64,000 nucleotides of DNA, from positions 7,438,888 through 7,502,887 of the forward strand of contig HG738138.1 of NCBI GenBank assembly GCA_000499405.2, written 5' to 3'. Source of the stretch: Onchocerca volvulus. Its lineage: Eukaryota; Nematoda; Chromadorea; Rhabditida; Onchocercidae. Below are positions 239 to 27,135 of this stretch, piece by piece (positions within the stretch are counted from its first letter, which is position 1; every line of letters starts with the position of its first letter). A program made the position numbers and the translations under genes. Under the pieces are notes generated by a model, which did not search any database, was not told the DNA's origin, and was given only the letters and a program-made list of their open reading frames with translations.

Positions 239-2408
239 ATGTCCATTGATACCGTATCAATCAATAAATTGCCGTTCGCTATCCAGACTATTCTGGGCGA
301 TGATGATGAACAGAACAAAATTTTCGAATGGAAGAGATCAATTTCTGAAAGTAATCTTTCAAGGAAAAGCAACGACAAGGATTGCTTGCCTCGATATCTT
401 CACATTAATTCCATAGTTCCACATCACTTTTCTCATCAAAGCATAATGGCTACATTCGATATTACATCTGTACTGCCTTTGACGAATCACTGTAAATTTA
501 TCCACAATCCACTATTAGCTTTTGGAACAGAAGTTCAGGATTATTGTCACTATCATTTTTTTTCTTTTTCTACACTGTATTCACCGATACGATACGGATT
601 TACTTCTAGTTCGATGGCACCGTCGAATGGATTTGCACAATTCAGCAAATTTAGTGACTTGCCTAATTTATCCGACGTAGAATTTAGAAAGTTATCTGCA
701 AATTCTTTAAATCAATCTTGTTTTTCCTTCAATTCTGATTTAACTAATTCCAAAATTGTAAAAATTCCTAGTAACAAGCAAACTGCATCACGCATTAATC
801 TAAATTATGAACATAGTGGATTTTGTTCAGATAAAAATTCTTCACCTTTTCCAACTCTTATTACGTCTTCCGGATCAGCAGCTATAGATTGTACAGAAAG
901 CTATTCAACAAAGCCACAAAAAACAAATCGACGAAATACTGTTATGGTACCACGGCGTATCGGTCATTCTTATCAGAGTCGGATTCCAGCAGGACATAAG
1001 AAACCGCGTACGTCCTTCACCAGAAAACAGGTGTGTTTTTCAAATTATTATTATATATTTTTGTGTTCCAGTTTTCCTATATTTTGTCATTGAAAATATC
1101 TTGCAGAATTCATTATAGTTATCTTTCACAATGAAAGTTTTTCGAATTTCGCAGAAAAGTTATTTTGTAAACCTCATGGAAAACAGAAATGACACTAGCG
1201 GAGTAATATCAGTATTAAACAACATAATCTCAGACTGTTAAAAAGCTGAAAATCTGTAACGCATTCGCCGGAGAAATCACAGAACGATGAAGATCTAATA
1301 ACGGGTATTTTTAACGGATAGCTTTACGACATGCATGCTAAGCAGGGATGCGATCGCATTTTTAAACAACCGCATCCTTGCTTTTCAATGTTTGACATGA
1401 AAAAAAAAAGAAAAAACGCCTCAACAAGAAGTACGCAGGACAAATCACTAGATAATTAGTCTTAGTAACCTTCCTTCCCTCTCCTCTAAAAGAATTAATT
1501 TGCTGTAAGTATGCAGCAAATTTATTCTTCTAACATCCACTTGAATTTTAAGCAATTCGATCGCCTTTAATATTTTATTCATTTCATATTATGTTATTTA
1601 CGTCAATCAAATATACATATCACTTATTTTGTTGTCATTGACTATTTTTATGCAAATATCATAATTCCGTTACTTGATATTGTTGTAAACGTTTTTTAAA
1701 TCACAATAACTTTTTTTAAATTTAAGATAGCATCACTGGAATCCAAATTTCTAGCACAGAAATATTTGGCAAATACCGAACGAGTGAACTTGGCCAACCA
1801 ACTAGAAATGAGCAATATGCAAGTTAAAACATGGTTTCAGAATAGACGTACGAAATGGAGGTAAATTTTAAGAAATAAGTCAAAATTATCTTTATATTTT
1901 GTGTAGAGCCAAATTAACGATCTAAATAATAAATTATACAGACTTTTTATCCGAAAGACAGTTCAGTTTCGAGTTCTCTCTGAAAATGGGTCTTTAAAAA
2001 CTTGGAAACCCTTTTTCTACTGTTTTTTTCATCTCAATTTTTTTTTTCTTTTTGTTCTGTTGCTAGAAAATTACTGAAAGCTTAATGAATTACCTTAGTG
2101 ATACAGCTATTAATCATGTTTAAATGAATTAAATTACGTCTTTAATTGTCTGCTGATTCGTTAGTAATAGACTTGTTCTTTTCACCGAGACTTGCAATAT
2201 CCACACCAAGGTAAAATAGATGGATTTAAATAAATAACCATTTTCATTCCACTGAAATTAGTAAGTAGAAATTGTCTGAAAAGTGAAACACACACATTAT
2301 TACAGAAAGCAAGAAGCAGAAGAGAAAGAATACGAAGACAAAGAGAAAGTCAAAGTGATGTCCTGCTATTCCAAATTCTTTTTTGCCAGGTCTGATGTTA
2401 TACTTTGA
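239..2408 (+). CDS. TLX-class (Tlx/C15) NK-like homeobox transcription factor
   Basis: Probable nuclear DNA-binding regulator. Three exons (239-1030, 1727-1860, 2306-2408) join in phase to 342 codons plus TGA. Residues 13-19 read FAIQTIL, an eh1-type motif expected to recruit Groucho co-repressor. Residues 239-250 (RRIGHSYQSRIP) match the conserved block just before TLX homeodomains. The homeodomain is about residues 253-312, begins KKPRTSF and carries VKTWFQNRRTKW; Thr at position 47 is the TLX hallmark, where most homeodomains have Ile or Val. The last exon reads KWRKQEAEEKEYE, like the TLX tail KWRRQTAEERE. Intron 1 falls between homeodomain residues 12 and 13 in phase 0. The start is the first ATG of the open frame; an upstream non-coding exon cannot be excluded. 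It converges on the NK4-like gene. Class assignment is firm; direct orthology in C. elegans was not established. Confidence 0.86.
1340..1383 (+). repeat. Inverted repeat (hairpin) in TLX intron 1
   Basis: Left arm AAGCAGGGATGCG (1340-1352) and right arm CGCATCCTTGCTT (1371-1383) are complementary over 13 bp, with one G-T pair and an 18-nt loop. It lies in the intron that splits the homeodomain. It is shorter than a usual microRNA precursor and no known microRNA seed was recognised. Confidence 0.55.
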
Positions 2409-3260
2409 CCGAATTTTTCCAGTGGATAAAGAGATGATTAGTTGAAGATAGCAAGAAGATCGTTTCAAAAACTTTTGGTACAAAACATTTCCAAGATATG
2501 TCAGTCGTTGCAACTGATTTGCCAAAGTAAGATGTAGTTGGAAATGGTGGATGACGGCTTTTCATTTTGATGCGTAATTTACATTTCATTCAGAGCTCAT
2601 TTATCTTTGCATCCTTCTAACTATTGCCACCTAATTACAAAAATTAAATCAATTCAAATCGCATCTCATATTAGGAAATTTTTTTAAAATGCATGCCCTT
2701 GAATTTTCCATTTAAAAGATTTTCGAAAGCTTCTAACAAAACACTGTCTGATTAAATTTCATTTCGTTACAAAAATGAGCACAGTAGTGTTATTTAAATT
2801 AATAGATTAGGATCAAAAAATATTCAGCATTCAGAATTCGATAACTGAAGAAATTGGAAAAATCATCTCAACAAGGTATCAGTTTGACTATTTTCAAATG
2901 ATCTCTGTATTAAATATTCGTCAAAAGGCTGAAACTACAACGAAATGAAAAAGTGAATGATCAAATTTTATGTCACTTGCTTGCTATAAATTTTCAATCT
3001 CATTTTTCCCATTCTATCCTCCTTCCTTCGCGAAAGAATTTTATTTCACTGAAATTACATCGCAGCATAATAAGGACAACCTACAATTCCGCGTATAAGA
3101 AAGTTTTGCTAATGTCGGGAGAAACGGCTGATAAAATGATAACTGAAGAAAAAATTGGAAAAAGACATTATCATGAATTCATCACAGCACAGTTGACTGA
3201 ACTGAACGTAGAAAAGCAGGTGAACTGTGACTTAGAATCAGTTGAGATGAGAGTTGCAAC
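2409..3260. other. Sequence between the TLX gene and the assembly gap
   Basis: This should hold the 3' UTR of the TLX gene and, on the minus strand, the 3' end of the NK4-like gene. No homeodomain helix 3 codons (WFQN) are visible in either strand here, so the missing part of the NK homeodomain must lie in the gap. Next to the gap the minus strand has short open frames of about 25-30 codons that could be a C-terminal exon, but none can be tied to the gene. Confidence 0.4.
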
Positions 3261-3498
3261 NNNNNNNNNNNNNNNNNNNNNNNNNNNNNNNNNNNNNNNN
3301 NNNNNNNNNNNNNNNNNNNNNNNNNNNNNNNNNNNNNNNNNNNNNNNNNNNNNNNNNNNNNNNNNNNNNNNNNNNNNNNNNNNNNNNNNNNNNNNNNNNN
3401 NNNNNNNNNNNNNNNNNNNNNNNNNNNNNNNNNNNNNNNNNNNNNNNNNNNNNNNNNNNNNNNNNNNNNNNNNNNNNNNNNNNNNNNNNNNNNNNNNN
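3261..3498. other. Assembly gap (238 N)
   Basis: A run of undetermined bases. It lies on the minus-strand side of the NK4-like gene, just downstream of the exon that ends at homeodomain residue 12, and is large enough for the remaining 48 codons of the homeodomain. Confidence 0.99.
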
Positions 3499-4368
3499 GC
3501 GCCAAATTTCAGATGGTTTGAGCCGAATTGGGCGCATTGCAAGCATAGGATTAGAAAAGAACAAATAATTATCGGGATAGTGTAACAAATTCATCAAAGC
3601 TACCTGAGATTGGGTAAATAAAACGCGCGGCTTTCGTCGCGTCTGCTGCGAACGTAGTTGTACGGAAGATTTGGAGTCGTCGTTACTGCCAGAGTGATTA
3701 GCTGTCAAATTGAGTCGCGAATCATTGTGCATATCTGGACTTGTTTGGCACAAAATGATTAAGTTTTTACTTATTCCAGGTTTATTAAATTAAAATACAC
3801 TTATCGAATGTAAATTATTGATAAAAGGACAACTAATACTAGCAACAACAACTCTATTATCATAGCTGCTCCATTATCAAGAACTCTCGAATCAGAAAAT
3901 CGAACTCATTGAATTGCTCTAAATTCCTCACTTGAAACTCTAAGTGAGCCATTCATAATCCGTTTCTTTTCCGGATTTTTATATTGAAATTTTAGCAAAT
4001 CAATCGATCAATCAATAATTCATAAATTGATGAATGAGTGATGTACACTTACTCAAGTGCGCATAAAGTGCAAATTGTGGTACAGCAGTTGTAGATGGTA
4101 ATAGTTTGGCGAGACCTGAATAGCGCATATCATTCATTAATGTTAACTGTTCTAGTGAAAAGTTTTGTAGTGGGAACACAGAAGATGATAAGTCTGGAGT
4201 TGCTGATAATGATGATAATGCTGCGCTGTTGGCCACAGATAAATTCCACGGAAATTCGAACATTGACATTCGAGAATTAGGCACCAATATTGAATTATTG
4301 TCTAGGTTTACTGCATCTAATTCAGGTTTCCGGATGTGCAGAGTTCCAGGTGAGGGACAGACAAGCAT
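3499..4368 (-). CDS. NK4/tinman-type (NK2 family) homeobox gene, partial
   Basis: Two minus-strand exons are visible: 4368-4053 (ends phase 1) and 3734-3604 (ends phase 0), giving 149 codons. The second exon ends with RRKPRVLFTQSQ, the first 12 homeodomain residues. KPRVLF is typical of the tinman/Nkx2-3/2-5/2-6 group, whereas NK2.1 and NK2.2 types usually have KRRVLF. The rest of the homeodomain is not found and presumably lies in the gap at 3261-3498, so helix 3, the diagnostic Tyr54 and the C-terminus are unseen. The intron follows homeodomain residue 12 in phase 0, as in the neighbouring TLX gene. The N-terminus is uncertain: an in-frame TGA directly precedes the ATG at 4368, and the exon could instead begin at an internal acceptor joined to a short upstream exon near 4440. 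A ceh-28-like gene is the other possibility. It is a probable sequence-specific transcription factor. Confidence 0.72.
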
Positions 4369-7344
4369 TCAGGTTGTGGAGCCAGATTTTGGTCAAGTTT
4401 GTCAGCTGTTGTTCACATTGATGATGATGATGCATAGCCATTAGTGGAGGGTTCCATGATTGAAATCATCGAATCCAATTGATGCAAGTGATGAGAGGCG
4501 CGTCTCATGTTTTCAAAAGATTCTCACGCGGCTAAGTTTTATCTTGAAATGATTTTCTAGTCCTCTTGTCCATGGATGGCATAAGGAAATAGCATGTGAC
4601 AGAGAGAAGAAAACGGGTTCTAATGGCTTCCGAGGTAAGGCGAATAGGTGTTACGGTACTGAAGTGTATTTACATAGTTGGCCAATCAGCAGTGCTCACT
4701 TCGAGGAGTTCGAAGTAAGGAAACTGGAAAATGAGAAGCGAAGAGGCGATAAAGGGGAAATGGATTGCATTACACACTTAAATGCGCCTTTCTTTGGATC
4801 ATTCGGACCTATCGCTTCACTAATTTTCAACCTTTGTATCAATTTTCATTAACTTCTTATCTCTCTGTTGATTCCATCTTCTTTCTCGTTGTATGTTGTC
4901 TCGGGACTTGCTGATGATTTGCAATAAATGAATATAAAAGATGAAGTTTAAGGCTCAATTTTCTTGAAAAATCAAAAACTAATGCGACAAATACCTAATC
5001 TCGTAGATTAGGCATTTAATTAATTTTTTAGACTTTGCAGAAGATCGGTTGCATGACATAAATCGATTCCGTAAATTCTTTGTGGTATTGGAATGCCTAC
5101 GATAATGCCTACTTACCTACAATAATTCGTTCCTCCGTACTTGCAAATATTTTAATTTTTATCTCCAACTTTCCACTTTGCATGTAGCATTATTTGAAAA
5201 CTAAATTTCAAATAAGACTTCATATTATGAAAGGTATTGCTGATTCGTCTATTTTACATATTTCCCTTTGCGACAAAAAGTTATTTTACATTTACACTTC
5301 AGTATACAAAAAATAATTTGCTACACATGGAATGACCTTTGTATCCTTGGACTGTTGAAATGACTAACCTTAGAACTTAGACTCTTGAAATAAGTAACCT
5401 TAGAACTTGGACTGTTGGAATGACCAGCCTCAGAACTTGAACTATTGAAATAACTTGCGATGACAAACAGGTCGTCAACAATTTATTGGGAAATCGCTAT
5501 GCAGAAGTGATCCTACTTCATTCATTGAATATTGAAATATCTTCAAGTGGCACTTCACAGTGTATTTTGTCTTATCACTATTATCATTATTTTTAATCAA
5601 TTAGTCATTATTAACTACATCTCAATAACTATATCCGAGTAATATAAAACAATAAATAAAGGGGTAAATTTGTTTTGCAAATTTAAATAGCTTGAAAACA
5701 TTTTAGAAGTTTTGCCAAAGTTGGAGAACTGAACAGTCCATTGAATGTAAGTAAACAGTTCTCTGACAGGCAATGCGACTCAACTGTAAAGAAAAAATGA
5801 AGAAAAACAGCCTGGTAAACAAAAAGATTAAATAAACATTACTGATAAATTTAGTGTAAAGTTACTGCTAGTTTTGACACTTTCATTCCTCGAATTTTAC
5901 TTTTACATGATTTCTGGATGATTAGTAAAAGAATAGGGTATCAAACAGATCTTTCATATGTTGCATTCCACAAGGACAATTATATATAATTGTTTACAAG
6001 CTCCCAGATGTTTCGATATTGCTTATTAGTCTCAGTTTGAAAAGACGCAACTGACTTTGACAATAAATTGATGAAACTATGGAAGTTTAACTCTATAACT
6101 TGAACATATTAATTCTTGACGATTTGAAAAAAGAGCGATAAACTTGCGGATCAATACTTGACATATACTCGTGCCTAATTTTAAATAATAGTAGAACTCT
6201 AACAATTCTCGAACAACTTTCCGTTGTCCACTTCATAGGGTTGACTTCATTTTTTATGAGCATTACTCAGTAGATTTTATGGAGAGTATTTCATCATGTG
6301 CGAAACAAATCTGAGTGTCCCTTTGCCTGATTTCTTCTATGCGTGTCTGTGTTTTGCATTCGTTGAACCGCTTAAGGTTTAATTCTGCTCGCAGTTTTTT
6401 GACCACAAATTCTCATAAAAAATTTTAGAAAATGAAAATTGTAACTTCAAAATTAAAATAGATAAAAACATTTTTGGGAAGTTGCCAACAATCTACATCC
6501 CTTTCTTCGAGGTAAATATATGCGGAATGCGTGGGAAAATGTGTTTTGGTATAACTGGCAAGTATTGGAGTAAGGGACGAAACTATTTCGAAAAATTCAG
6601 GCATGTCACTTGTGATTAAAAGAAATTCTGGTTAAATTTATTAATTTATTTTCAAAAAATTCCGATTAAACCATACATCTGAAAGGCATGAATGTGCAAT
6701 GAATAATTTCATGACTGACGCTATAATCTTTTATATCGAAGTATCAAGGTTTGTAATTTTTACAATTTTACTTAAGTATTAAGATTTTTCCATTCATTCT
6801 GCACAAATGTTTACTTACTACTGTAAAGAAATATTGCAGAAGTGAAGCAATCATGGAAAATCGTTTATTATTCGCCATGGGGAAAATAGTGTTCAATTTT
6901 ATCGCATTTTCGATTCATATCCAAAAGAAACATTTCTTGTTGATAAAAAACGAAATTCAGTGAGTTAGCAATCACCAGAAATCATGAAATAGTATCCATC
7001 AAGTAAAGTTGAACTATAGCATTTTCTCACTTAGGTAACAACAACTCCAGTTTCTATCAATGAATAAGATACATTTCTAATCGATCATAATGACAGTGGA
7101 TAAGCTTTAGAAAAATCCGTTGTAGTGTGGTGCAAATTGATCTCTAGAAATTCATTCTTTTCTAGTCAATGGTTTTTCAAAGATAACGAACAACAGGCAA
7201 TAAAAAAAATTGACAGTATGTCAGTGTAAACAATTAAACTCTTCTAAAGCCAACTTACAAATAGAATATCCTGTAATGCGATGAATTCTGAACAGAATTA
7301 AACAAGAATTTTGACAATCAGTATAATGATTAACATTGAAGGAT
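4369..7344. other. Intergenic region between the NK4-like gene and rrp-8
   Basis: About 3 kb upstream of the NK4-like gene and downstream of rrp-8, both on the minus strand. Apart from a 30-bp tandem repeat and a possible short N-terminal exon of the NK gene near 4425-4450 (minus strand), no coding or RNA feature is supported. It is the likely cis-regulatory region of the NK gene. Confidence 0.5.
5346..5454 (+). repeat. Imperfect 30-bp tandem repeat, about 3.6 copies
   Basis: Units starting at 5346, 5376, 5406 and 5436 share the pattern CTTGGACTGTTGAAATGACT then AACCTTAGAA, with several substitutions and an incomplete last copy. It is a small degenerate minisatellite in the NK4-like upstream region. 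Confidence 0.75.
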
Positions 7345-9656
7345 TTACCGTTTTTTATACAAACAAGGCTTCAATTCTAATCCAATCGGTCGTTTCTGTG
7401 CCACTTTACCAGCCTTGGTAAACTCCAAAATAACAAAATAATCACCATCTTTCATCATCTAGAATTCTTTAATACAATAATCATCTGAATATATACTATT
7501 ATTATTAAAATCCTTTCTATGATCATTTATTTATAAACTATTGTTTTACTCTTCACACAATGACAATTCAAGGGTAATACAATTTAACAAACCTTTCCAG
7601 AAAAAACAAATCCCATTTTTGTTACAGCATGCACGAACTGCTTTATATTTATGAATCGACTCGCAACTTCGGCTATTTTCAAAAAACCTCTACAAATAGG
7701 CATAAGTTAGGTTCCTTGGAATAGATTATATTCATTAATTTCAAAAATCAATAAGCGCAATATTTCTGTATCATTATTTAATAATATATGAAATGATAAC
7801 CACCCTTTCTTTAATATCCGATTCGCTTCGCTCAAATATTCGTTCAGATTGGTTCCCATTAATGAAAGACAAAAAACAACAATATCTACTGATTCACTGC
7901 ACAGCGGGACCTGCACAAAATTTATTCATCAACAAAAACAAAATTCAGCTAGAGAAAGCGGTTAAAATAAATGAATAGTAAAGTAAGTCTAAAGTATGTT
8001 CACATAACTGAAAATAGCTTTATTGATGTTATTCATTCACTCATTCGACAGGCAGAATACACTCTGTCACGAAGTAGTCTGAACTAAAGTCATATTTTGG
8101 TCATTATAAGCCTTCTCAAGTTCACTGGTATGACTTTTAAAATAAAACTAAAAATATACGGTTTTGAAATTCGCATTTGTTGAGGATATGTGCTTGTTAT
8201 CTTCCTGTCTAACGGCACTATACAAAATAAGTGAAACGTAACTCCGTTATGCGTAAGAGATTAATAGTGAACTTACATGTATCCAACAATAGAAGAATAA
8301 TGGAAGATTTAAAGAAAATCTTAAACATCTTTAACTACTATGCTACTAATAATGCTAAAATCAGTATTCTAATGTATTGATATACCTTGGACATGTCACA
8401 CGCCGTAACGCGATCATTTACAGCAACCAAATCGAACGAATGTACAGTAGCTGTATGTGATAGTGTTTCAGCAATAATTGCATTTCCACAGCCCAAATCA
8501 GCAATCACTAATCCATCATGTTTCAGTGATCTTATCCATTGAATAATGATATGAAGTGGATTGCATGGCCATTTCTTTGCCTATAAACAATCATATTATT
8601 AATCTTAACTCTCTAATCAACTATTTTCCCTTTCTAAATATGCATAATTCAAAGTTTAATTCTTTTTAATTCTTTGCAAATGTCATCGATATATTACATC
8701 ATTGCAGAAATCCACCAGCCCTCTGACTAATTTATACATCACATTAAATCATAAATCCAAATACTCAGCATCCTTCTGATAGAAATGGGTAAATCACTTA
8801 CACAATAAAATTTCTTCCACTGCATTTTGAACAGTCCTATACCGGCATTTATTCATATTTTATATAATTCCCAAACCTGCATCTGATATCCTTTATGGTA
8901 CAATTTAAAAGCCTCTGGGTCCTTCCGAAACAGTTCCATAGCTTCAGAACCATTCATTGTATATAATTGCTCGTTAATATATCGAAATAATGAAGAATCA
9001 ATTTTCTCTCTACCATTCATTTCTTGTCTATCCATTGCCACATTTTTACTTGAGCCGTTAGGATAATTAGTCTTCTTAATCCTACTTTTCTTCTTGTTTT
9101 GCATTATTTGCATACCACTTGAAATGGTGTCTGAAACAACAAATCACAGAGCAGACAAAGAAAATTAATTCCCATAGTTCTGCATTTACTCGACTTATCA
9201 TGGTACCAAAAGATTTCTTCCAACGAATAATATAACTACCTTTCTTTTCCCTCAATTTTCTTTTCGCTTCCTTAGCAGCTTTTTTACGAACTTTATTTCG
9301 CCATGGACGATGCTGCTTTCTCGGCTAAAACAATGAACTAATAAAAACATCTAGATAAGTAAAAGTTAAGGTTAAATTTCACAACTCTGCCTTCCATAAC
9401 CAGGACTGTAGTACATGCACCTTTCAGCCGATTTAAGTTAAATGCAATTGTAATTCAGTTCACTACCCAAATGATTAATTAGTTGCCAAACTTAATTTAC
9501 AGTGCTCCATTTAGTCATAATATTACAATTATAATAAGGAAAAATAAAATTAACAAACTTTACCAACGAAGTTCCCACTTCTTCACTGTAATCGATTTTT
9601 TTTTGTCTTGAAAGAATGACACTGTCCTTGTCCGCCAAGTTTTCTTTGTGTCTCAT
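7345..9656 (-). CDS. rrp-8: Ribosomal RNA-processing protein 8 (nucleolar SAM methyltransferase)
   Basis: Rrp8/nucleomethylin methylates adenine N1 of large-subunit rRNA in the nucleolus. Seven exons join in consistent phase: 9656-9564, 9324-9240, 9130-8877, 8580-8386, 7910-7804, 7689-7593, 7458-7345, giving 314 codons. The N-terminal 120 residues are basic ([15 protein letters not shown]). The conserved core starts [10 protein letters not shown], with [16 protein letters not shown] motif I is ADLGCG (171-176), followed by HSFDLV, ACDM, and [11 protein letters not shown] (about 219-229); then [11 protein letters not shown] and the family ending LKPCLYKKR. The start is the first ATG after a T-rich stretch ending TTTTGAG, a possible trans-splice acceptor. 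It lies about 640 bp downstream of nog-1 on the same strand, so co-transcription is plausible. The family match is very strong; the shorter N-terminal exons are less certain than the core. Confidence 0.9.
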
Positions 9657-10296
9657 CAAAATCTCAAAAAAANAAATGGGGAAAAGGAAACGAAATGCCT
9701 GGACGTCGCACTTGTTCGCAAACAGCGCATAATTCAACATGTCTAAAATCGCATGGCAGAAAAACTAGGTTAAAACTCTCCTAAATATTCAAATCTTCTT
9801 CGATTTTTCTAAGGTTTCTACTCTTCATCGTACAGTAGCAACATTCCCCAAATGAATCAACTTTTGCAATGGGCAAATTTCGCAACTAAATAATTACCAA
9901 AAAATCTATTTAACATCGAAAACCGAACGAGGAAATACCAAAAGGATTAATAAAGATTGTTTTACAATGATCTCGAAAAGCTACTACCACCAAGATCATA
10001 TCATTATAATCAAAACTTGGGTGAAAATTAAGTACTTTAATATACTATTCGCATAGAATATGAATGTATGGCAAATGCAGTGTATTAACAAACTTTATTT
10101 TTAAATAATTAACTACTGCAATAAAAAAGCAATAAACAGCTGTCTAAGATCACCAGATATTCGTAACATAACGAAAAACAAATAATGTGACAGATAACAA
10201 CATCATTTCAAGTTTAGCCGAATAGGGCTTTTTTATTATCACTGTACATCACTTTTTCACGGGAATCACCAAAATATGAATACTCTGACAAGAAAT
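9657..10296. other. Spacer between nog-1 and rrp-8
   Basis: About 640 bp on the minus strand between the nog-1 stop and the rrp-8 start. It holds the nog-1 3' UTR and the rrp-8 5' region. No other gene is seen. Confidence 0.6.
9673..9673. other. Single ambiguous base (N)
   Basis: One undetermined base in the T-rich tract just upstream of the rrp-8 start. It lies outside the coding model but within the likely acceptor region. Confidence 0.95.
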
Positions 10297-13200
10297 TTAC
10301 CGCCTATCTGTTTTTCCAAGTCCACGCTTGCCAGCAAATAAATGTTTCGGACGTTTTACAAAGATATGTCTATCAGCTTCACCTTTTCTTGCTTCATGCT
10401 GTAGATTTTTCTGCTTTTTTCGTCCAACTTTCTTTGTCATTTCTCGTACCTAAATTAAAGTTTGATTATTAATTTGAGCGAAATTCTAACTGCTAACGCT
10501 ATAGAGATATATCAGCGAAAAGTCTTTGTTCATTTTTATAGAAATTGATTACATTCCTGAACATCTTTTCTAGAAATGCTAATCTTTAATTCGCCATCAT
10601 TAAATGTATACTGATCCAAAAAAAAGAAAAGAGAAACTGCTAACTTCGTCATTCTTTATACCCTGCACATCACGACTTGGCGGTCGACTAGCAACTAAGC
10701 TCGGACTTTTTCCTACTCGTATTTTTTTAACTGTAGGTTCCCTCAGTTGTTCCTTAGCCAAATTCTTCAGTTGTGCTGGATGAATATCAGCACCAAGATC
10801 ACGGAATTGTTCTTCCAAACATGCCATATTTCTATCGCGTTTTCTTGTCACAGAACGACTTAGACGTGGTTTTGTTATACTTTTCTTGGCTTGTGAAGCC
10901 TGCAATTCTAAGACTTCAATAAAGCACTTAATGAGTTCAGGATATTTGTTCAAAGGATGAAAAGCGATCATAAAATGCTTAAATTGATATTAAATATAAA
11001 TATAAGATGTTTTTTATCAATTTATTTTACCATTTTCAGTTGACTCTCTTTTTCAACGATTTTTTTGGCATTTTCAAACAATTTTTTCGTCTCATCATCG
11101 TTCAAATCCAAATCATCATCATAGAACCTAAAACATATCATTTAAAAAAATCGAAAATTTCCCGGAAGCTATGTAAGATTAAAATAGATATAAATTCCTC
11201 TATAAGTTGAAAAAATCTCATACCCTGCTTGAATCTTTGCTTCTTCTTCGTCCCTTATTGACTCTAACATATCTTTAACATTTGATGCAACAAAATCGGC
11301 GATATTATGTCCTTCCCATATTTCGGGCACAACATCATATTTTTCTTCGTCATTTTTCAGTAAATAATGCTCTACAATAAGCAAATACATAGTAGATAAA
11401 ACGAATTAAAATTTTATTACAGCAAAGCAACGTCTTGTCCCTTATTCTGAACTAAAATCATAGCCGAATAATCCACATAAATTAATCTACATTTAAATTA
11501 TAACAAATGTGAAAATCGATGAAAAAAAAAAAATGTATTCAATGAATGAAAACTTACTCTTCAAATCAAGTACATATTCATCTTGCATTTCCAGTTCAAT
11601 CTGGCGTTCCAATTTTCGTATTCCTATAGTTTTCTCCTCATTGCAATTATTATTACCCAAAATCTTTTTCTTCACAACTGCTTCCGGTATAAACGGTGCA
11701 CGTACCTGGAATTCAATAGCGAGAGATAACAGCAAACTAAAAACTCTACACAAGAAAATTCCACAAAAATAAACATACTTTGTCATCTCTCGGAACAGGA
11801 TAAGCAACAAACACACGGCTTAGCACACCATCTTCAACCGTTAACTTTCTCGACTGCAATTTGCTTTCAACACGTTGTGTTAAAAGACAATTGCATGCCT
11901 AAATGGCAAAGTTTTATTTTCATTTTTCAAAATAAAACACAGTGTCCTCTTTTCTGACAAAAAAATATAAATAAGCAACTGAACACAAGCAAATTGTTGC
12001 ATGTAGATATATCGCATTAAAACAAATTCATATTCAGCATCAATATCATCTTAACAAACTCAATGTATTTTGTATTCGTTGAGAATTACTAGCCTCAGAT
12101 TAGTCTATCTTGTGCTCATTTTATAATCTAACAGTTACCTTATAATAATAACATTTCGATAGAGATGTCAATAACTCTTTTTTATGGAATTAATTCAGCC
12201 AATTTGCATTAATGTCTTTTTATTTGCTAAAACTTTTTTTTAGTAACATCGCATAATCGTTGCCTCTTTGATATGCTGTAAAATAATCAAATATGATAAT
12301 GATGCAACAAGGCTGTAAAAAAAATGACTACCATATTTCTGAAATCCATGATTCCTTCTTGCGTCACAGTACTAAGTTCAAACATAGATAAAGAATCGCT
12401 TTCTAATTTTTTAAACTGCTCCATTTTCTCCAGCTTTAGTTCATCTCGTTTTACTATATCGATCTTATTTAAACCAATTAATACTGGCTTGTTCACAAAT
12501 AATGGACGAATACTTTCAAATAATGCTACCTGAAAAGCCCAATCAAAATTAGCATTTTTGACAAGCACTGTATCAATATGATATCGTAAAGATTTATTAC
12601 TTGTTCTTCAATTGTATGATCGCATGTTTCACTTATATCCATGATGAACAAAACTGCAGCACGCAAATGTGCAAGTGCGGTGATTGCTTGCATCTCAATT
12701 GTATTACGTTCTTCCAAAGGTTGGTCCAAAATACCAGGTGTATCAATAACCTAAAATTATTCAATTATGGTAGTCTAAACACATTTCAGACTATTTTCTT
12801 TTGTTTTTCGAAATAGTACCATTTGTTTTCATGCTAGAAAAACTTCAGCTAAATTTTCATCTATGAAATTTGTAAATCGTTCAAAAATAGGAACAAATCA
12901 TCCGGAAAGACAATCAGCATTAGCACTTACCTGCCAACGAAGATATTTATAATCAAGATGCCCAACATAAAGGGATTTAGTAGTGAATGCATAAGGCTGT
13001 ACTTCAACATCAGCACGTGTTAACAAATTCATCAATGACGATTTACCAACATTTGGGAATCCACATAGTATTAATGTCCTGAAATTCGATCTATGATTTG
13101 TAATGTAAATTTTTTCATTCTTCAGCACCGACAATATTTAATTACTATGAAATATTGACAAGAAAAATATAACAGTAAATAAGCAATTTCTCCATACCTC

Positions 13201-14176
13201 GTGTTTGGATCAATTGTTGGTAGACGCGAAAGATGTTGTCGAACCTGCTCCAAATAATCAAAACTTGATTTCTGGTGTTTCAATAGCTTTACCATTCGAC
13301 CAAGTGCTGCTCGCTTTAGCATTTTACATCGATACAATGAATCGCCATATTTCATTAGGCGAACATATTCTCGTGCAATACTGAAACGTTTTTCATCTAG
13401 AATTCATTGCAACAAATTCATATTTCAATCAACGTAAATGATTTTAATCGACATTTTGACATGGTGAATTACAGTTATCACTGAAATTAAAAACTGTTAA
13501 AATTTACCCATCGATCAAATGACGAGCCGTGTTCATTTGTCCCAAGGCAATCTTGTAGTGGTCCTTATCGTATAAAATATTCATGAGATCGGCATAAAAT
13601 GGATGAACCTCCTAAAAGGCTATTCAAAATGTTTAATGGTGCACTATGAAAATCCAGAAACTAATTTTTCTCTATTTCGCTTTAGAAATTCAACAAAGTA
13701 ATCAGTTGATTTAGCACAGAAATTTATGACAATGATCAAGAAAAAAGGCAAGAAATCCAAAGAGCAATTAAAGACGAAAAACTAAGAAATCACCTCCATT
13801 TTTGGAAATTCATCGATAATTTGTGTCAATTTATCGTGCAAAACTTGCTGCAAGAATTTAATCTTTCGTGTATAAAACGATCGAATCCGGCTAATTGCAA
13901 AGTGACGGTGAACCACAGTCGGTGTTTTCCTCTGCGTTTTGGAAAGAACTATTTCTTTTAAATCCTGGAGAATAAATTTGTACTTCATAGTCTTTCATTT
14001 CGGTTGCAATCTTCAGTATAATCAAAAATTATACAAACTGTTATCTTTTCAACATCATATTTAAAAATGACAATATTTGAATAATTTAAATAACTAATGA
14101 TTGACCCTTAATAATAATTACTCACCGCAGCAGACGGAACGACTGTTATCTTCTTGAAATTGTAAATTGCCGGCAT
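10297..14176 (-). CDS. nog-1: Nucleolar GTP-binding protein 1 (NOG1/GTPBP4)
   Basis: NOG1 is a GTPase needed for maturation of the pre-60S ribosomal subunit. Thirteen exons fit in phase: 14176-14126, 13964-13794, 13611-13508, 13380-13198, 13078-12931, 12750-12601, 12529-12332, 11898-11779, 11705-11558, 11371-11224, 11127-11031, 10899-10645, 10449-10297, giving 641 codons. The N-terminus is [18 protein letters not shown] motifs: G1 GFPNVGKSS (176-184), G3 VIDTPG (220-225), G4 NKID (290-293). Later blocks are APFIPEAVV and [11 protein letters not shown], a basic region [11 protein letters not shown], and the ending [23 protein letters not shown] good acceptor (TTGTTCCAG, ending at 14188) lies 12 bp before the ATG, fitting trans-splicing. 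A small ORF ends 70 bp upstream and rrp-8 lies downstream, so an operon is likely. Length is close to the family norm. Confidence 0.93.
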
Positions 14177-14246
14177 TTGCTCTTAAACTGGAACAAACAT
14201 AATGAGGAAAAAGTACAAAATTAAAGATATCACATTTATCATGTAC

Positions 14247-14585
14247 CTAACATAGATCTGTTATAAGTGGAATTAAGTAATCGATCATATCACTATACAA
14301 TATTTCATTTGTTTTTCTCTCTTGCACCAACATTTTTATATTGCTATACAAATGATGGCCGTAACAGACCGAAACAAATGAAATAAAAGGAGAAAAGGCT
14401 GCCTTGAAAGCAACATTTCCTCGCCGTTCTGACCATCGAATCAAGTTATCATTAGATGAAAGCAAGGCGAAGAAGTGGTGGCATGCAAACTTATCACTGA
14501 GCGTAATTACACCTCCATTCAATCGAAATAGTATATCAGAAAAATATGTCTTATCTTGAAAATACCACTGAGATAAATCTTTCAT
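14247..14585 (-). CDS. Unrecognised 112-residue ORF upstream of nog-1
   Basis: A single open frame with ATG at 14585 and TAG at 14247, beginning MKDLSQWYFQDKTYFSDILF. Codon use looks coding-like and the frame has no internal stops. Its stop lies 70 bp from the nog-1 start, a spacing typical of nematode operon cistrons, and nog-1 has a strong acceptor in between. The segment YFSDILFRLNGG followed by CHHFFALL faintly recalls the start of a BTB fold, but this is not convincing. It could be the last exon of a longer gene, since an AG lies just before the ATG, or a chance frame. No function is proposed. Confidence 0.38.
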   Translation of the reverse strand: MKDLSQWYFQDKTYFSDILFRLNGGVITLSDKFACHHFFALLSSNDNLIRWSERRGNVAFKAAFSPFISFVSVCYGHHLYSNIKMLVQERKTNEILYSDMIDYLIPLITDLC

Positions 14586-18848: not shown

Positions 18849-18956
18849 AATCAATTATCTAACTCTAATCAATCATTTAATACCAAAATCAATCATCTAA
18901 CTTTTTGAAATCAATCACCTAAAAAAATCATTCTTTTGAAAATAATCATCTAACTC
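18849..18956 (+). repeat. Degenerate tandem repeat around AATCAATCATCTAAC
   Basis: Four to five diverged copies of a unit resembling TTGGAATCAATCATCTAACT, with unit length varying between about 20 and 30 bp. It looks like a decayed minisatellite. Confidence 0.5.
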
Positions 18957-20480
18957 TCTCAAACTTTCTTGTAAAACGAAATTAAAGAAGCGGTTTAAAA
19001 CTCTACGTACATGTACTTTTTGTTTTTTATTAAAATGATTCGCTATCTACCGTGGTTCTTGTAAATTGCTACCGTTGTAACCACTCTAGTACGCTAATAT
19101 CGTAATACGGTGCAAACATATCAGGCACGTTGTTAGAGAATTGACATACTAATAAAACGGATAGTAATGATCTTCAATTAATTCATAAGGAAAAAAGAAA
19201 AGATTAAAAAAACTGCAAATGAAATTTACCTTAAGAAATTTTAAAGCAATATTTTAGGTGTTTTGAGCATAGAATTAATAGATTTAGATTAAGAAAGCAA
19301 GAAATATGCAGTGTAATGATCAAAATGTTTGTATGAAATGATTTGTCAAAAAAACATGGTTCAATATAATACGTTTCTATAGTGATAAATTTTGTAATTT
19401 GTATAATTCTTGCAAACAATCATCAGGAATTTGAAATAAAACCTGAATTTAAATGAAATTTGGAAAATGTGCTGTTATGGAAAAATTAAAGCATGATGTT
19501 TTGAGGCATTTTGGAAAAATAAAAGCGTTTAGATGAAAAAATAAAAAGTACTTGAGAAGCGATTGGTCCATGAGATTCCAATCGTGAGTGACATCTTATA
19601 GACTGATTCTACTATATATAGAAGTGTTTTTACACTGGAATTTTGAATAAATTATAAATTTCTCATTGTGATTTCTCATTGTAGTACTAATCTTAAAAAT
19701 GAATAATAGTAGTATTGTTTTTCGCACCTGGATACAGGTTAAGTGCAAAGGGTTGATTAAATCATAGATTAGGAGATTAATCTGAATCGCCTGTTCTAAT
19801 TGCTTACCAGTGATCTGCTATGCTAATGTATCCAACCCTCACGAACCACTAAGGTATCAATTATTTACCTGTTACTGCCCCATCATTACTGCTGACACAG
19901 CAAAGCGCACTTCTCATCTTTCTTCTTGATTCAGTCCAATTCATTTAAATCCAATTCTTTTGTTAACAGTAATGGTACAATAACAATACTTCTCCTGAAT
20001 CAAAAAAGGCTTATTGACTTTTGATTGATTACACCGCAAAATGTTTTGGTTATCTATTTCTTGGCTTTAACTAATATCACAATTTCTCTACGTTCTCAAC
20101 ATTAAATCTTGTCGATTCATATTTTTAGTCCATTACACTTCCACAGATTTATGAAAGCATTTGATTTCATTCCACCCAACTAATATATATAAATCAAAGT
20201 TCTCTTTTATGTGTTATTATCAACATTGCAAGAAAACTTGAGCAAATTGATCTATTAATTTATCAAAGAACAGGAAGAACCATGAAAACAGACATTAAAG
20301 AGAGAAAATAAAAATGCAGATTTCATGTATCGTTTTTTGTTAATCATTCTGATTACCCAAGTTTTCCAATTTTAAGGAAAATTCGGGAAAACAAAAATAT
20401 ACGTTATTTCATGAAATTATCTACGAAAACTGCCTTTTTTGAATTTTGATCATGCAGAATTAGGATCACAATTGGAAGTA

Positions 20481-23400
20481 ATGGCAGATGGTGAAAGTGG
20501 TAAATGTGATGAAGATGGGCACAAAGTTCAGCATTGGATGCGTACCGATCAAAGCAAAATTTATAGTACAATTGATGAAACTGTTAAATCCACCTCAAGT
20601 ATGATGTGTACAAAGTTATTCCAATTTCAGTTTAAAATCAAATCTTTAGTGTTTGACAAATTCTCAAAATGAATAAGCGCATCCTTTTTCTCCACTTGAC
20701 AATTCATAATTTTAGGTGATCATCAGCAGAGAGGGAAAGATCCATTAGAAGGAACGATAAGAAATCGATGCCGGTTTTCCATCTCCGATATATTAAGCGA
20801 CAAGCATCCAACAAGCCATATCAAAACGTAAATGAAATATTTATCTATATGCAAGAATGTGCAAACATGCAAAAACAAAAGATATTCTACATCATCAGTC
20901 AATTTAATCTTTTGAAAAATTAAACTCTTTAATGTGCTCATTCGTAAAATTCTGTTAATATTTAATTTGTCATTTTATGATGATTGAAGTTTCTTATTCG
21001 ATAAGCATATCCATATATTATAAAAGGAGTTAGAGAAACAAAATTCGAATCAGACAAATAATTAGAGAAAGATTTTTTGCAATGATTGAGTCTTTACTTA
21101 TCGGTAAAACGACCTATCAATTCTCATTTGTAAATTTGAGCTCGTTGCTAGCAGTATGTATTCCAGTAGAGCGTTATTCAGGCGATTAAATGGCCAACTT
21201 TTGTATATGCGCTCGTTATCGCTTCATCTCAGCAATAATAATTATAATAATGGCGCATTTTCACTACATCATTTGCAGCATTTTGCATATAAGAAATATT
21301 GAATACATTTAAATATACATATGACTTGCGTTTTCAAGAAAATTAGAATTATACCTTTCTAAAATAACTTTATATATATTCTTTAAGCGCTGTGAATAAT
21401 ATTTTGAAAATATTCAAAGTCAGTTTTTTCATTTTATCAATTTTTAGCGTATGGAAACTTTTCGGCATTGGCCCAAAATTTGTTTGGTATTTCAGTTTTC
21501 CTCAATTTGCCTCAATGCAGTTTCAGAAAATTTTCAGTATTTGATAAGTTTAACTTATCAATGCAATTTAAAATATTTAGAATGGGAAGTCTGGTAACGA
21601 AAACCTGCATTACCACTTCTACTACAGAAACGGGAAATGTTTCGGTTTTACTTCCTACAGCAGTGAGCATTAGTGATGAAGTACCATCATACATCACTTC
21701 TCAGTTACCACGATATCTTCATGCCGGTGACTTTAAATTATGTTTATGTAACTATAAGTTGTTCAATCAAAAGGGAACTCAATTTCCTGATAGAACTAGC
21801 CGTCATTTCTTCCTTTCAAATAGCAGAAAATATATGTTTGTGTAGAAATTTTACAATTCAAACAAAAATATAACGAACATCTCAAAATATTGAGAAATTT
21901 AAAGGTATCTTACAACAGTCAACACAAAATCCATGGTTTCAACCTTGGCTGTCCACAGTTCGTCCCTCAATTTCTCAAGAACAAAATCTGGCACATAGTG
22001 CTGACAAAAAACAGGCAGAAAGAGTTCATGAAATGAGTAAGTTACTTTGACACGTCATTGCGAATTCTCCAGTTTTTTAATTTCTCAGGTGAATACAGAT
22101 TTAAAATTCAATATGTATATATAATGAAGGAAACTGCATTGTAATAGAAAACTATTAAAATACTTGAAGAAACAATGATTCTGGCAGAACCAGGACACCT
22201 GTAATAAAAAAAATCATTTCATATAATAACCTTTTCTCACCTTTTCTTAGCATCACTATGTTGGAATAAACGTCTCATATTACCTTCCTAATTCTTGAGA
22301 ATTTAAGAGTACGGTTATTTGAAGACTATCATTTTTATCCAATTATTTTAAGATCTTTCTTTGAAGTATATCTTTCTAACCGAGAAGCCGCCACTCCTCC
22401 TTCCTTTTTCTTATTCATTTTTTCATTGCCGCAAGGATGCGATATAGAGAACAATGAAAACGGTAGGAAAATATTCAAGTTAGGAAGTAGGGAATCTGAA
22501 TATTTCGCGTCATACATAAGTACTGAATGAAATAGGTCATCGGTCGGTACTTCACAGAGCACTCCCCTCATTTCGGATAATTTTCGGGATGATTTCATTC
22601 TAACATGACCAACCGTTCAGGCATTCATGAACATATGAATGCAGAGAAAGTAGAAAAACAATATGTCTGTCAAATACAATGGCAATAATTATAATAGATT
22701 GTTATCTTCTTATCTCATGTTTATGTTTTCAAAGAAATTGCATTATTTTTGCGAAACGTTAGGCCGACAAATTAACTTCCCGACCTTCCCATACTTACTG
22801 TTTGTCGTTTGCTCATCACTTAATTAATTCACTATCCAAACCCACAATAAGCGAATCTCATTGTTGCATGAAGCATTTCCCTTTGACTACTCCTTTTCAT
22901 TCGATTCAAAAAATGTTACTTGAAAAATCAATTTTCAAAAGATTTAATTCACAAAATTTAAAATTACTATCAACTTTATTGATTGATTGATTTGTGAAAA
23001 TTTTTGCCTCGTGAAGTCAAAATTATCTAACATTTTTACTTGCTTCTCCTACCTTGATGAATGTCCTGATAAAGATCATTTAAAAATGATAAATTTATGC
23101 ATTTTGCTTCGTTCATCTCCCATCAATTTTATTGAATTGGTTAGTTTGATTTAGAATTTTTCATTTATTATTCTAAAATTTGAAAAGTTAATTCAAGTCC
23201 TCTTTAGTTTATCCGATATGGAAATTGATCTTTGCTGTTTTTAGATTAAAATAAACTTAATTCTTATAGTGCATAGTCTTTCAAGGGCTTCATTATCACA
23301 GAAAATGGAAGTAATTCTAATCCTAGTGAAAATTGAAATTTTATTTTTTGAATGGATCGCTTTCATTGTGCGCCTATCACTAATTAGCTTGCCGTAATTA

Positions 23401-26400
23401 ATTTGAATATTGTTTCCTTTCTTTTTTTTGCATGGCTGAACACAGTGGGAAGCGGGATATTGTGATCGTGCTGCGATGAGCTTCTCTTCCTTGTTTAGAA
23501 ATGAGCCATCTTTGACGACGGATTACTCCTAGTAATCAGATAATTACCGGTCAGACGTTATTACTGTAATTCTAAGAAATGTTAAAGGTTCAATGACTAT
23601 TATATGATTGAGCTTTCAATAAGAGTTAATTACCTTTAAATAGTAAAATTTTGATAAGTTTATGAGAAATGTTTTTAATAGTATTTAGAATTATTAAAAT
23701 CTGGAATAAGACATCAAATGAAAGCATTTCAATGATGGGAAGCTATCATCAATGTGAAAATGTGTTACACAGATGTGAGCCATGTTTGTGTTCGTTAATG
23801 ATGCGTGTAGACATTGAATTCACTGAGTTACTCTTAAATTTATTACCTTCTTAATATACCGCTCTTTTTTCTATTATCGTACTAATTGTTCAGTTCATTT
23901 CTGACTTTTGAACAAAAGACTTTCGTGATTTTTACTTCGCCATCATTTCAAAATCTGTGAGAAGTTATGTACAGAGATCTATTGGGCATTGCCATGAAAT
24001 TACCGTATTCCTTCAAAATTATATTCATTGAATTCAAATAAGAATTAATTTTTGATTCACAACTAGTAACATAATAGTTATAAGATCTATAGCTGCAAAT
24101 GATTGATTTTCACTTGCACAAGAAAGTTTTCTGAAAAAAGAAATCAATTGCAACTGGAAATAACTCCACCTCCGCAAGCTATTTACGAATTCATCTTCCC
24201 TCAATAATTTAGAAAAACCAAGATTTCATTGAATTCCTTGTAAAAATTAAAAATAATTTTAGTATTAACAATAAAAGCAACGTAGCAAAATAATTAGCTT
24301 TGAATCATTCATTAACAATATTTTGATGGAAATGGAGCGTTTCATGTTCATCAAAGCATAGACAATAATTCCTCTTATCCCTAATTCTTTTGCTGCTCTT
24401 TAATTCTCATATTGCCTTATTATGCAAATTGAGGTCATTTTGGTTCAAAGTTAATCCTTTGAATAGATTCAAAATGATCCCCCAATGTCGCTTGTTGAGT
24501 ATTTCGGGATACCTCTTAGATTGGTGCCTTTATACAGCGGACGGCGCTAAAGATCATCGAACCAAGATGCATTATCAACACAGCCTTCACTCATACATCA
24601 TAAATTGTCCATTATTTCAATATTCCAACTCAATAACTATCACGTGAGGAGAGTTATTAATAAAGTTTGCTAAAAATGAAATTTTGAGATGCAGCCACAG
24701 TGGGATGGTCTCCATGGTAAACTGCTAAAAAAGTAGAATCAGTGATGAACTCTCAAACAATTCATTTCTGCAATATCATTGAAGAGAAGACATTTAAGAT
24801 TATGTAAATTCTCTTAGTCTGATTTTTAACTCCTCTTGTTTCTTCTCGAATCCATTACTGCAGTTTCAGTTGTTAGCTGGGAGGAGAATTTCAAAAATGA
24901 AAAAGATTCGAAATGGTTTATTTCCCTTAATTTGACTATTCAGCATGTTATTTGCTATCAATTTTTGTGTTGTTAATCCAATGTTATTATATGAATAATT
25001 TTAGTATCAGCTTCCACAAAGGATCTCTTCCAGTTAGTATCCGCTTATTCACAGCGAAACAAAAATCTGCAATATGGAGCAATTCAGGTAATTCCAGATG
25101 GTGTCAGCGTTACAGAAAGCTCATCAGGAACTCACCTGGTATGCTAATCATCTTTGAATTTAAGCACTAAGGTACACTTTTACACTCCTAAATAACAGTT
25201 GTTGAATTTCAAAGTAAATTAAATTAAAAATTTTCAAGGTTTGGATAGATCTTTTGTTTAAGCCTTTAGAAAATGTAAATTCTTTTCAACACAAAACCAT
25301 TACTAGATCTCATAGAGTAGTTTTCAGTATGCTATTTGATTCTAATGAAAGTGAAGTATAAGAGTGCTTTTGGTAAATGTTATACATTTTACGGGATGGA
25401 ATCCAGACAACTATTGGTAAAGAATATTTCAGGAGCAAAAAGACATAGTTGAAAAAAAAAAAGTTCGTAGTATTTTTCTTCCTTTCAAAATGATTACTTA
25501 GTACTCATAAATTGTTAAATCATAAACTGAGATTCGAGTTGGGAGCATTTAGACTGTTCGAGAATAATAAATTCATCATCGCCTGAAACTTCGGTCTTTT
25601 TATTCTTGGATATGTTGACTTTAAAACTCTGATGTCTGTGTTTCTAAATTTCGAAACAGCAATCAAAGATAACTGATAATTCGAAAACAATGACCGATCC
25701 AGCCGGCGAATTGGGCAGTGACTGTGACGATGATAACGATGATGATGACGATGATGATGATGATGATGATGATAATGATGACGATGTTGGTGAAGATGAT
25801 GATGATGACGATATGGCAATACGTGCAAGTGACGATGAAAGTACGATTTTATTGTCTGGATCAACCATTCCACGCAAGAAGAAAACTCGGACGGTTTTCA
25901 GTCGTCAGCAAGTATCCCGACTGGAAATGACCTTTGACATGAAACGATATTTATCCAGTCAGGAGCGTGCATATTTGGCCTCAACTTTACATCTTAGTGA
26001 AACACAGGTAACCGAAACTTAATAACCAGTGAAAATCTCAACACCAGTTTACAGGATTTGGCTGTCATAAAAAAATTCATTTCTTTTTTGATAAAAAATA
26101 TTACCAAAGACAGATATATAATTTTACTATTCCTTTTTTTAGAAATTTTGAATGGCAAAACTTTCCTACCATTCCCGGACTTTTTAGATTGCTAGATTCC
26201 TTACAGAACGGCCTTACAAATTAGATCACACTGTTAATATTTCCCGCTGTCATTTTTCCGATACTTTCTATTCATCATACTATTTTCCGGCACTGCTTAT
26301 CATTATTTTTTGATAAGCAGTGACCAGTGCAATTTGCATTGTATTATAAGCACATTATGACAGTTGCTATCAGCAATATACTTATGATTGAAATGATTTC

Positions 26401-27135
26401 ATTTTAATTACCGTATCATTATCACTTTGCTTACAGTAGTACAAATATGTCGGTCCTTACTTAATGCATTTCATTCGTTATATATTACAGTTCAGCAGCA
26501 GTCTCTAACAACAGCGGATGTATTACAGGTGAAAATCTGGTTTCAAAATAGGCGGAATAAATGGAAACGTCAAGCAGCAAGTGACGTGGATAGTTCAAGC
26601 GCGATGAATATTCACCGATCACATATTTTTGCCTCAAATATGCAGCACATTAGTGATGCATCAGAACGTTTTCCCGGAAGTATTGCAGTCACGAATAGGT
26701 TTAATTCATTTTTCTTGAATTTCTGGTAGTATCTCATCATAATCTTTCTTTTTACAAATAAATTTATAATTGATATCGAATATTTAGCTTTCGAAACATT
26801 CAGCGTGAAATTATAACTCGTCTTATTCTGGACTCACTTTCTCAGTTATTTATAGAGCTATACTTTCCTCAAAGTATGACTTTATATAAGACAAACTTCC
26901 AAAATATTTCAGCTTACCAATGGCACCCTTGGCAAACATTGCTCCATCATTACTACACCCGGCAATCCTATTTCACGCAAACTCAACAACAGCAGCACCC
27001 ACGACACCAGCATCACCCCAAGCAATCATCAATTTCAGTAATGCAGAAAATGCAGCAGCTGCGGCTAAACTGTTTTACAGCACTTATGGCAGTGCCAGCA
27101 CCGGCATCACTGGCCCAAATGCACAGCTGACATGA
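20481..27135 (+). CDS. mls-2: HMX/NK5-class homeobox transcription factor (mls-2 type)
   Basis: HMX proteins are homeodomain regulators of neural and mesodermal fates; C. elegans has one, mls-2. Eight exons join with matching phases: 20481-20598, 20716-20827, 21581-21726, 21905-22036, 25005-25138, 25660-26007, 26529-26698, 26913-27135, giving 460 codons. Residues 60-66 read FSISDIL, an eh1 motif for Groucho binding. Exon 4 contains NPWFQPWL. Residues about 235-267 are nearly all Asp. The homeodomain (about 287-346) begins [13 protein letters not shown], contains [13 protein letters not shown] and [15 protein letters not shown], and is split after residue 44 in phase 0; FDMKRYLSS is an HMX signature. 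The C-terminus is rich in Ala, Pro and Ser. The start ATG follows a possible acceptor (GATCATGCAG) at 20455. Exons 3 and 5 rest on splice signals and phase alone. The symbol denotes the family member, not proven orthology. Confidence 0.88.
25729..25813 (+). repeat. GAT/GAC trinucleotide tract coding poly-aspartate
   Basis: An almost pure run of GAT and GAC codons in the exon carrying the HMX homeodomain start. It encodes a chain of about 25 Asp with rare Asn, Val, Gly and Glu. Such tracts expand and contract by slippage, so length may vary between strains. Confidence 0.9.
26291..26322 (+). repeat. Perfect 12-bp inverted repeat in HMX intron 6
   Basis: CACTGCTTATCA (26291-26302) and TGATAAGCAGTG (26311-26322) are exact reverse complements with an 8-nt T-rich loop. 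It sits in the intron between the two homeodomain exons. The arm sequence TGATAAGCAGT recurs once near 52617. It could be a small hairpin in RNA or a palindromic binding site. Confidence 0.65.

Follow-up and report, generated by a model that had tools for sequence, protein, structure and literature searches.

The closest described counterparts of the locus reported here are the NK homeobox clusters of insects, onychophorans and tardigrades. The Drosophila cluster comprises slo, tin, bap, Lbx and Tlx (PMC4604119), Epiperipatus carries seven NK genes in order (PMC13088399) and, in Ramazzottius, five NK genes extend over more than 2 Mb of one scaffold (PMC6050708). C. elegans is reported to lack large-scale homeobox clusters (Hench et al., 2015). 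In these papers the order of the NK cluster is argued from arthropods, onychophorans, tardigrades and chordates (PMC13088399, PMC4604119, PMC6050708), and among the papers listed by literature searches none deals, by title or start of abstract, with the NK cluster or TLX in nematodes, a weak negative with most subscription journals outside the coverage. Here we describe three NK homeobox genes, TLX, NK4 and HMX, that lie within 27 kb of a 64,000-nucleotide stretch of DNA (hereafter the window) from the nematode Onchocerca volvulus. We read this trio as a remnant of the bilaterian NK homeobox cluster that contains an inherited TLX-NK4 pair, and assign this reading a probability of about 0.7.

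Like the insect and onychophoran clusters, O. volvulus has TLX and NK4 linked on a chromosome with other NK-cluster genes, and the surviving classes are the same. Unlike those clusters, O. volvulus yields no distinct match to LBX or NK3 in its genome (NK3 had no query of its own), NK4 and TLX are direct neighbours, HMX lies beside NK4, and the rest of the cluster genes are 1–3 Mb off. The tardigrade Ramazzottius likewise has a cluster that is drawn out and broken up along one scaffold and interspersed with many non-NK genes, but it keeps NK3 and LBX, whereas the nematode has a tight TLX-NK4(-HMX) core. Caenorhabditis shares orthologues of NK4 (ceh-28) and HMX (mls-2), which in C. bovis are both listed on an equal 10-Mb contig, but differs with respect to TLX, which O. 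volvulus possesses and for which no Rhabditina protein appears among the best 120 matches.

Genomic setting of the trio

The window corresponds to positions 7438888-7502887 of O. volvulus contig C3 (25,485,961 bases), part of a 94.7-Mb genome in 115 contigs. Its TLX protein is 100% identical over 342 residues to the O. volvulus UniRef entry A0A8R1XXR3, and the O. volvulus genome paper identifies a 25.5-Mb scaffold, OM2, as the X chromosome (PMC5310847); on these grounds we take the window to be part of the O. volvulus X chromosome.

TLX and NK4 are arranged tail to tail, with about 770 bp between their stop codons and no unrelated gene in between. A GTPBP4/Nog1-like gene separates NK4 from HMX, so that strict adjacency applies to TLX and NK4. 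By a rough formula that assumes random placement in a genome of 94.7 Mb, three specified genes would fall within 27 kb of one another with a probability of about 2e-7, and within 110 kb with one of about 4e-6.

Classes of the three homeobox genes

The TLX gene (T-cell leukemia homeobox / Drosophila C15-clawless class) occupies window positions 239-2408 on the forward strand, with exons at 239-1030, 1727-1860 and about 2306-2408. A threonine at position 47 is a mark of TLX homeodomains. The window homeodomain carries this residue (VKTWFQNRRTKW), as do the named TLX proteins with which we compared it. The window protein also contains an eh1-like motif near its N-terminus (LPFAIQTILG) and a pre-homeodomain motif (PRRIGHSYQSR), a combination that agrees with the family pattern of RRIGHxYQxR plus an N-terminal eh1-like motif; TLX proteins of Tribolium, Ixodes and Owenia have RRIGHPYQNR or RRVGHPYQNR together with similar N-terminal motifs. 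The C-terminus, FFARSDVIL (pattern FFARxDxxL), is encoded across window positions 2400/2401. It is present in 8 of the 12 aligned spirurine entries, including the window's own (the other four stop short of it), and is recognisable in Toxocara, Steinernema, Dracunculus, Plectus, Trichuris and Romanomermis. Full-length relatives from Toxocara and Dirofilaria bear the name T-cell leukemia homeobox protein 2. Comparison with PDB was of little help for any of the three genes; the TLX query found chain 3a01_A best ("homeodomain-containing protein", 88.7 bits) and TLX2 (3a03) third (68.5 bits).

We built two homeodomain trees, one of 66 rows (23 of them author-supplied reference homeodomains) and one of 39 rows (11 of them author-supplied). 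In the 66-row tree the nematode TLX rows form one clade (support 97/93), and the rows nearest to the window protein are TLX. Because homeodomain trees are short of columns, assignment to the TLX class also rests on the flanking motifs and the full-length named kin.

HMX/NK5 (mls-2) extends over window positions 20767-27134 on the forward strand. Its homeodomain is encoded by exons 25651-26010 and 26526-26696 (split at 26010/26526), followed by a last exon at 26911-27132 plus the stop codon, which lies at about 27134. Upstream exons, beginning at about 21.5 kb, were located by their match to a Loa protein (about 21.6, 21.9 and 25.0 kb), and an FSISDIL-type exon at about 20.77 kb (about 20767-20830) was read by eye. 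HMX rows form one clade in both the 66-row (97/94) and the 39-row (94/93) tree, the window gene belongs to the HMX/NK5 family, and its kin include MLS-2 and HMX1/3. The best PDB chain for the HMX query is an engrailed construct (6m3d), and no HMX chain occurs among the best 60.

NK4 (tinman / Nkx2-5 / ceh-28) is read on the reverse strand from 4368 to 3182, with exons at 4368-4051 and about 3735-3604 and a C-terminal tail at 3259-3185, beyond the gap described next. Only the first dozen homeodomain residues are readable in the window (RRKPRVLFTQSQ), the remainder falling inside an assembly gap at 3261-3498. Because this gap of 238 N hides most of the homeodomain, the window alone could not show the class of the gene. 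The missing exon was located at C3:7549434-7549688, in a near-identical inverted copy (copy B) in which 547 bp stand in place of the gap. With the homeodomain completed in this way, the protein combines RKPRVLF with NRRYK and groups with C. elegans ceh-28; the nematode NK4 rows, ceh-28 included, form one clade in the 66-row tree (100/95), and kin of the protein include ceh-28 and entries named Nkx-2.6 or tinman. Placing the window gene in NK2 or NK3 was rejected in the 39-row tree (p-AU from the approximately unbiased test, 0.003 and 0.002, respectively). The O. volvulus NK4 reading starts downstream of the N-terminus that is annotated in O. flexuosa, Loa and others (upstream of window 4368, reverse strand).

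All three homeobox genes are thus confirmed as real. A preliminary description of this DNA, made from its letters, had claimed three NK-like genes of different classes within 27 kb, and the positions given above bear this out. Its assignment of TLX from Thr47 is upheld by the flanking motifs, the named kin and the identity to A0A8R1XXR3, and its HMX/NK5 assignment by the HMX clade in both trees and the MLS-2 and HMX1/3 kin. Its NK4/tinman call, made from the ten residues RRKPRVLFTQ, was right, but the proof needed the homeodomain from copy B. The description had also raised the prospect that a homeodomain phylogeny would place genes outside TLX, NK4 or HMX; the trees instead support an HMX clade and the grouping of NK4 with ceh-28, and reject NK2 and NK3.

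NK4 lies in an inverted duplication of this assembly

Window positions 2401-14564 (arm A) are repeated in inverted orientation at C3:7537992-7550472 (arm B), over 12.2 kb and at 99.9% identity. The loop between the arms measures 84.5 kb and has HMX inside. Arm A takes in the last 8 nt of TLX including its stop codon, NK4 (copy A) and a complete GTPBP4/Nog1-like gene (10300-14170, reverse strand; identified by its match to an author-supplied human GTPBP4 query). TLX and HMX themselves are single-copy in the genome, further matches to the HMX query being confined to a low-complexity stretch.

The preliminary description had worried about a misjoin at the 3261-3498 gap. This proved not to be the critical site: the gap sits within a segment of which the assembly has two copies, and both gap flanks are contiguous in arm B, so the junctions that matter are window 2400/2401 and 14564/14565. 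At the first of these, other species conserve the TLX C-terminus that is encoded across the boundary. Arm A therefore looks natural on its TLX side and this TLX-NK4 junction looks genuine, while arm B looks like an added copy, whether real or artefactual. The spacing between NK4 and HMX is about 16 kb in the window and about 82 kb from arm B; a 46,029-bp Loa contig that holds both NK4 and HMX fits the former and not the latter.

Two accounts of the second arm have to be weighed, and the number of NK4 copies and the exact distances hinge on its status. We put at an even chance the possibility that the assembly is in part artefactual, with window 2401-14564 and C3:7537992-7550472 representing one locus twice (allelic contigs, or one contig reused). 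Across about 11.9 kb the arms show just 7 substitutions and one N/8-T run, the 238 N of one copy correspond to 547 bp in the other, the genome contains exactly two instances of a 1.4-kb piece of the arm, and the reads behind the assembly were, we presume, short. All four boundaries with unique sequence are free of N gaps, however, and a false copy would need two unsupported joins. Under this account one NK4-Nog1 copy would be unreal, and the three genes would remain linked over about 27 or about 110 kb.

The other account, whose probability we place just short of one half, is a real inverted repeat on the X chromosome, in which a 12.2-kb segment would have been duplicated in opposite orientation at a distance of 84.5 kb, with gene conversion maintaining the similarity of the two copies. 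It would leave two NK4 genes and a stretch around HMX able to flip. The four gap-free junctions agree with it, as does the content of the copied piece (two complete genes plus the last 8 nt of TLX), and two of the seven substitutions are no more than 21 bp from one end of the arm, a position at which conversion should fade. Yet so small a number of differences is explained equally well by allelic or sequencing variation, and none of the relatives among the aligned entries has two distinct NK4 loci. Two D. immitis NK4 entries that we considered as duplicates share one N-terminus and look like isoforms. That the distal homeodomain at C3:7549434 represents a fourth NK gene was rejected, as it is the second copy of NK4.

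Signs of TLX-NK4 linkage in other nematodes

As a stand-in for maps, linkage was scored from the length of the longest contig listed for each gene (per 90%-identity cluster), identical lengths for two genes in one species being taken as a sign that they share a contig; the species were counted by hand within the best 120 rows of each protein listing. By this measure TLX and NK4 are on an equal contig in 6 of 10 species (A. viteae, B. pahangi, Thelazia, Toxocara, S. hermaphroditum and S. carpocapsae). Their locus tags are consecutive in both Steinernema species (L596_003387/003388 in S. carpocapsae, QR680_001744/001745 in S. hermaphroditum), and the two Elaeophora proteins have neighbouring UniRef accessions (A0A0R3RVY8 for TLX, A0A0R3RVY7 for NK4).

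HMX accompanies them in some of these species. All three genes are on one 144,932-bp Thelazia contig, and all three have an equal contig in each Steinernema species (18.4 and 20.9 Mb). NK4 and HMX are on an equal contig in 8 of 17 species (Loa, Thelazia, D. immitis, both Steinernema, A. duodenale, N. brasiliensis and C. bovis) and differ in the other nine (O. flexuosa, B. pahangi, T. canis, Anisakis, N. americanus, C. nigoni, C. auriculariae, C. brenneri and Teladorsagia), several of these mismatches involving small scaffolds or perhaps different assemblies. HMX is thus near the pair in Thelazia and Onchocerca, near NK4 in Loa and far away in Steinernema, which leaves it as either a retained or a re-acquired neighbour.

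The preliminary description had pointed to synteny in other nematodes as a check, and linkage does recur: for all three genes in Thelazia, for TLX-NK4 in Steinernema and for NK4-HMX in Loa. The arrangement is not a relict of this one species, given that TLX occurs in at least 25 nematode species and shares an equal contig with NK4 in the majority of the ten species in which both are listed. Because the arrangement is common to other nematodes, the original observation extends further than it was first read.

Other NK genes on the same chromosome

Further NK-like genes are present on C3. An NK7-like gene lies at 6.43 Mb, an NK1-like gene at 9.50 Mb and an MSX-like gene at 10.40 Mb, NK2.1-like and NK2.2-like genes lie at 14.67 and 20.25 Mb, and homologues of BarH, Bsx, Dlx, Emx and engrailed are on contigs other than C3. 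C3 is not otherwise enriched in homeodomain rows, with 17 of 64 (hand count; 6 of the 17 are the NK-cluster genes themselves) vs 26.9% of the genome in this contig. At that 17/64 share, which includes the rows of the genes in question, the probability that all six placed cluster genes fall on C3 is about 3.5e-4. The suggestion in the preliminary description that LBX, NK3 or MSX might be found nearby was met in part: the MSX-like gene shares the chromosome, at a distance of 3 Mb, and LBX and NK3 (the latter searched without its own query) gave no distinct match.

Retention or reunion of the trio

Six of the nine cluster genes (NK7, TLX, NK4, HMX/NK5, NK1 and MSX) would on the retention reading have stayed on one chromosome within about 4 Mb, with TLX-NK4-HMX as a tight core. 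The tail-to-tail TLX-NK4 pair would have been inherited, as suggested by its linkage in two or more major groups of nematodes, among them Spirurina and Steinernema, and loss of NK3 and LBX in nematodes from an NK4-NK3-LBX-TLX series may have made NK4 and TLX direct neighbours. Each gene presumably encodes a separate sequence-specific homeodomain transcription factor that acts as its class does. TLX and HMX carry eh1-like motifs, a type of motif that recruits Groucho co-repressors. The genes could have been kept together by enhancers that they share, or by a low rate of rearrangement in this chromosomal region. The TLX-NK4 pair is the strongest claim of our analysis, and probably represents a retained ancestral linkage. 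The tight trio is likely the ancestral state, and the closeness of HMX to the pair may be secondary.

The comparative framework is the 2026 panarthropod study (PMC13088399), which describes Msx-NK4-NK3-Lbx-Tlx as a common order and pairs HMX with NK1; it takes Msx-NK4-NK3-Lbx-Tlx as the ancestral core, with NK7 next in line, and assigns NK1 and NK5 a place either behind NK6 or ahead of Msx. In agreement with this order, NK7 is on the TLX side in O. volvulus. With NK4 at its window position, O. volvulus shares 4 of 5 adjacencies with the Chan order as relayed there (P 0.033), a value that was computed after seeing the data and depends on how the passage is read, the order of NK1 and NK5 being ambiguous; a variant reading gives 3 of 5 (P 0.20). 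If NK4 is placed at the distal copy, the shared adjacencies drop to 2 of 5 (Chan) and 1 of 5 (Wotton) by hand count.

A number of observations weigh against a retained cluster remnant. As to class, the TLX rows as a whole are not one branch in the 66-row tree, and in the 39-row tree neither a single TLX clade (p-AU 0.43) nor grouping of TLX with LBX (p-AU 0.16) is rejected. In the 66-row tree NK2 sits among the NK4 rows and NK4 overall is not one branch (a single NK4 clade is not rejected in the 39-row tree, p-AU 0.44), and among PDB structures Nkx2.1 and Nkx2.5 match the NK4 homeodomain with equal scores (83.5 and 83.0 bits), which does not separate NK4 from NK2. As to linkage, the TLX and NK4 contigs differ in 4 of the 10 species among the best 120 rows (O. 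flexuosa, C. johnstoni, Loa and D. immitis); three of these mismatches involve short scaffolds but that of D. immitis does not (6.8 vs 27.5 Mb, in differently named records that perhaps come from two assemblies). One more mismatch would come from a Strongyloides TLX entry with a truncated species name (894 kb), should it belong to S. ratti, whose NK4 contig measures 3.7 Mb. In O. volvulus itself, an NK6-like exon lies on an unplaced contig, C15, and the NK7, NK1, MSX and NK6 labels were assigned by eye with author-supplied references. The adjacencies shared with the Wotton order (window NK4 position; as relayed in PMC13088399) number 3 of 5, which does not exceed chance expectation (P 0.20).

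HMX accounts for the remaining counterpoints, which also carry an alternative. NK genes may have been dispersed along one ancient chromosome and the trio rejoined by intrachromosomal rearrangement on the way to Spirurina, in which case the tight trio would not be ancestral and the chromosome linkage still would be; we hold this to be somewhat improbable, at about one chance in three. HMX of Steinernema is on an equal contig with TLX-NK4 but separated from the pair by about 275 and 460 locus tags, the NK4 and HMX tags of Ancylostoma duodenale and Nippostrongylus are 572 and 742 apart on an equal contig, and HMX is beside NK4 or TLX in neither ancestral order described in PMC13088399. Dispersal and reunion do not accommodate TLX-NK4 so readily, however: the consecutive tags in Steinernema and the equal contigs in Toxocara, Thelazia, A. 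viteae and B. pahangi imply that the pair seems to predate the split of these groups. The retained TLX-NK4-HMX arrangement of the preliminary description accordingly stands in part, in that TLX-NK4 linkage recurs, but falls short for HMX.

A more ambitious form of retention, which we consider doubtful, takes the whole stretched six-gene X cluster, NK7-TLX-NK4-NK5-NK1-MSX, as derived from NK5-NK1-MSX-NK4-(NK3-LBX)-TLX-NK7 by one inversion of NK5-NK1-MSX and the loss of NK3 and LBX. If it were true, nematodes would be an independent witness for NK1 and NK5 on the MSX side in the bilaterian ancestor, against the conclusion of PMC13088399, in the main text of which the word "nematode" is absent. 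For the retained pair, the consequence is broader. TLX-NK4 is common to filariae, Toxocara and Steinernema, in a lineage seemingly without NK3 and LBX, and nematodes could on this basis inform the disputed ancestral order.

Distribution of TLX in nematodes

Among the best 120 of 1151 matches, TLX is present in at least 25 nematode species with complete names and in one Strongyloides entry; the range extends from filariae to Plectus, Trichuris and Romanomermis. The same 120 matches contain no Rhabditina TLX, and a diverged TLX could remain further down. Poor sampling does not account for this absence, because the best 120 rows of the NK4 listing contain 17 Rhabditina species. These observations agree with the earlier impression of a nematode TLX that C. 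elegans lacks, and suggest that the C. elegans group lost a gene that other nematodes kept.

Neighbouring open reading frames

A Pfam scan of neighbouring open reading frames matched 2 of 10. One, at window 34796-35155 on the reverse strand, has RCC1 repeats. The other, at window 51949-52287 on the reverse strand, has an amyloid A4 N-terminal heparin-binding domain and is probably the nematode APP-like gene.

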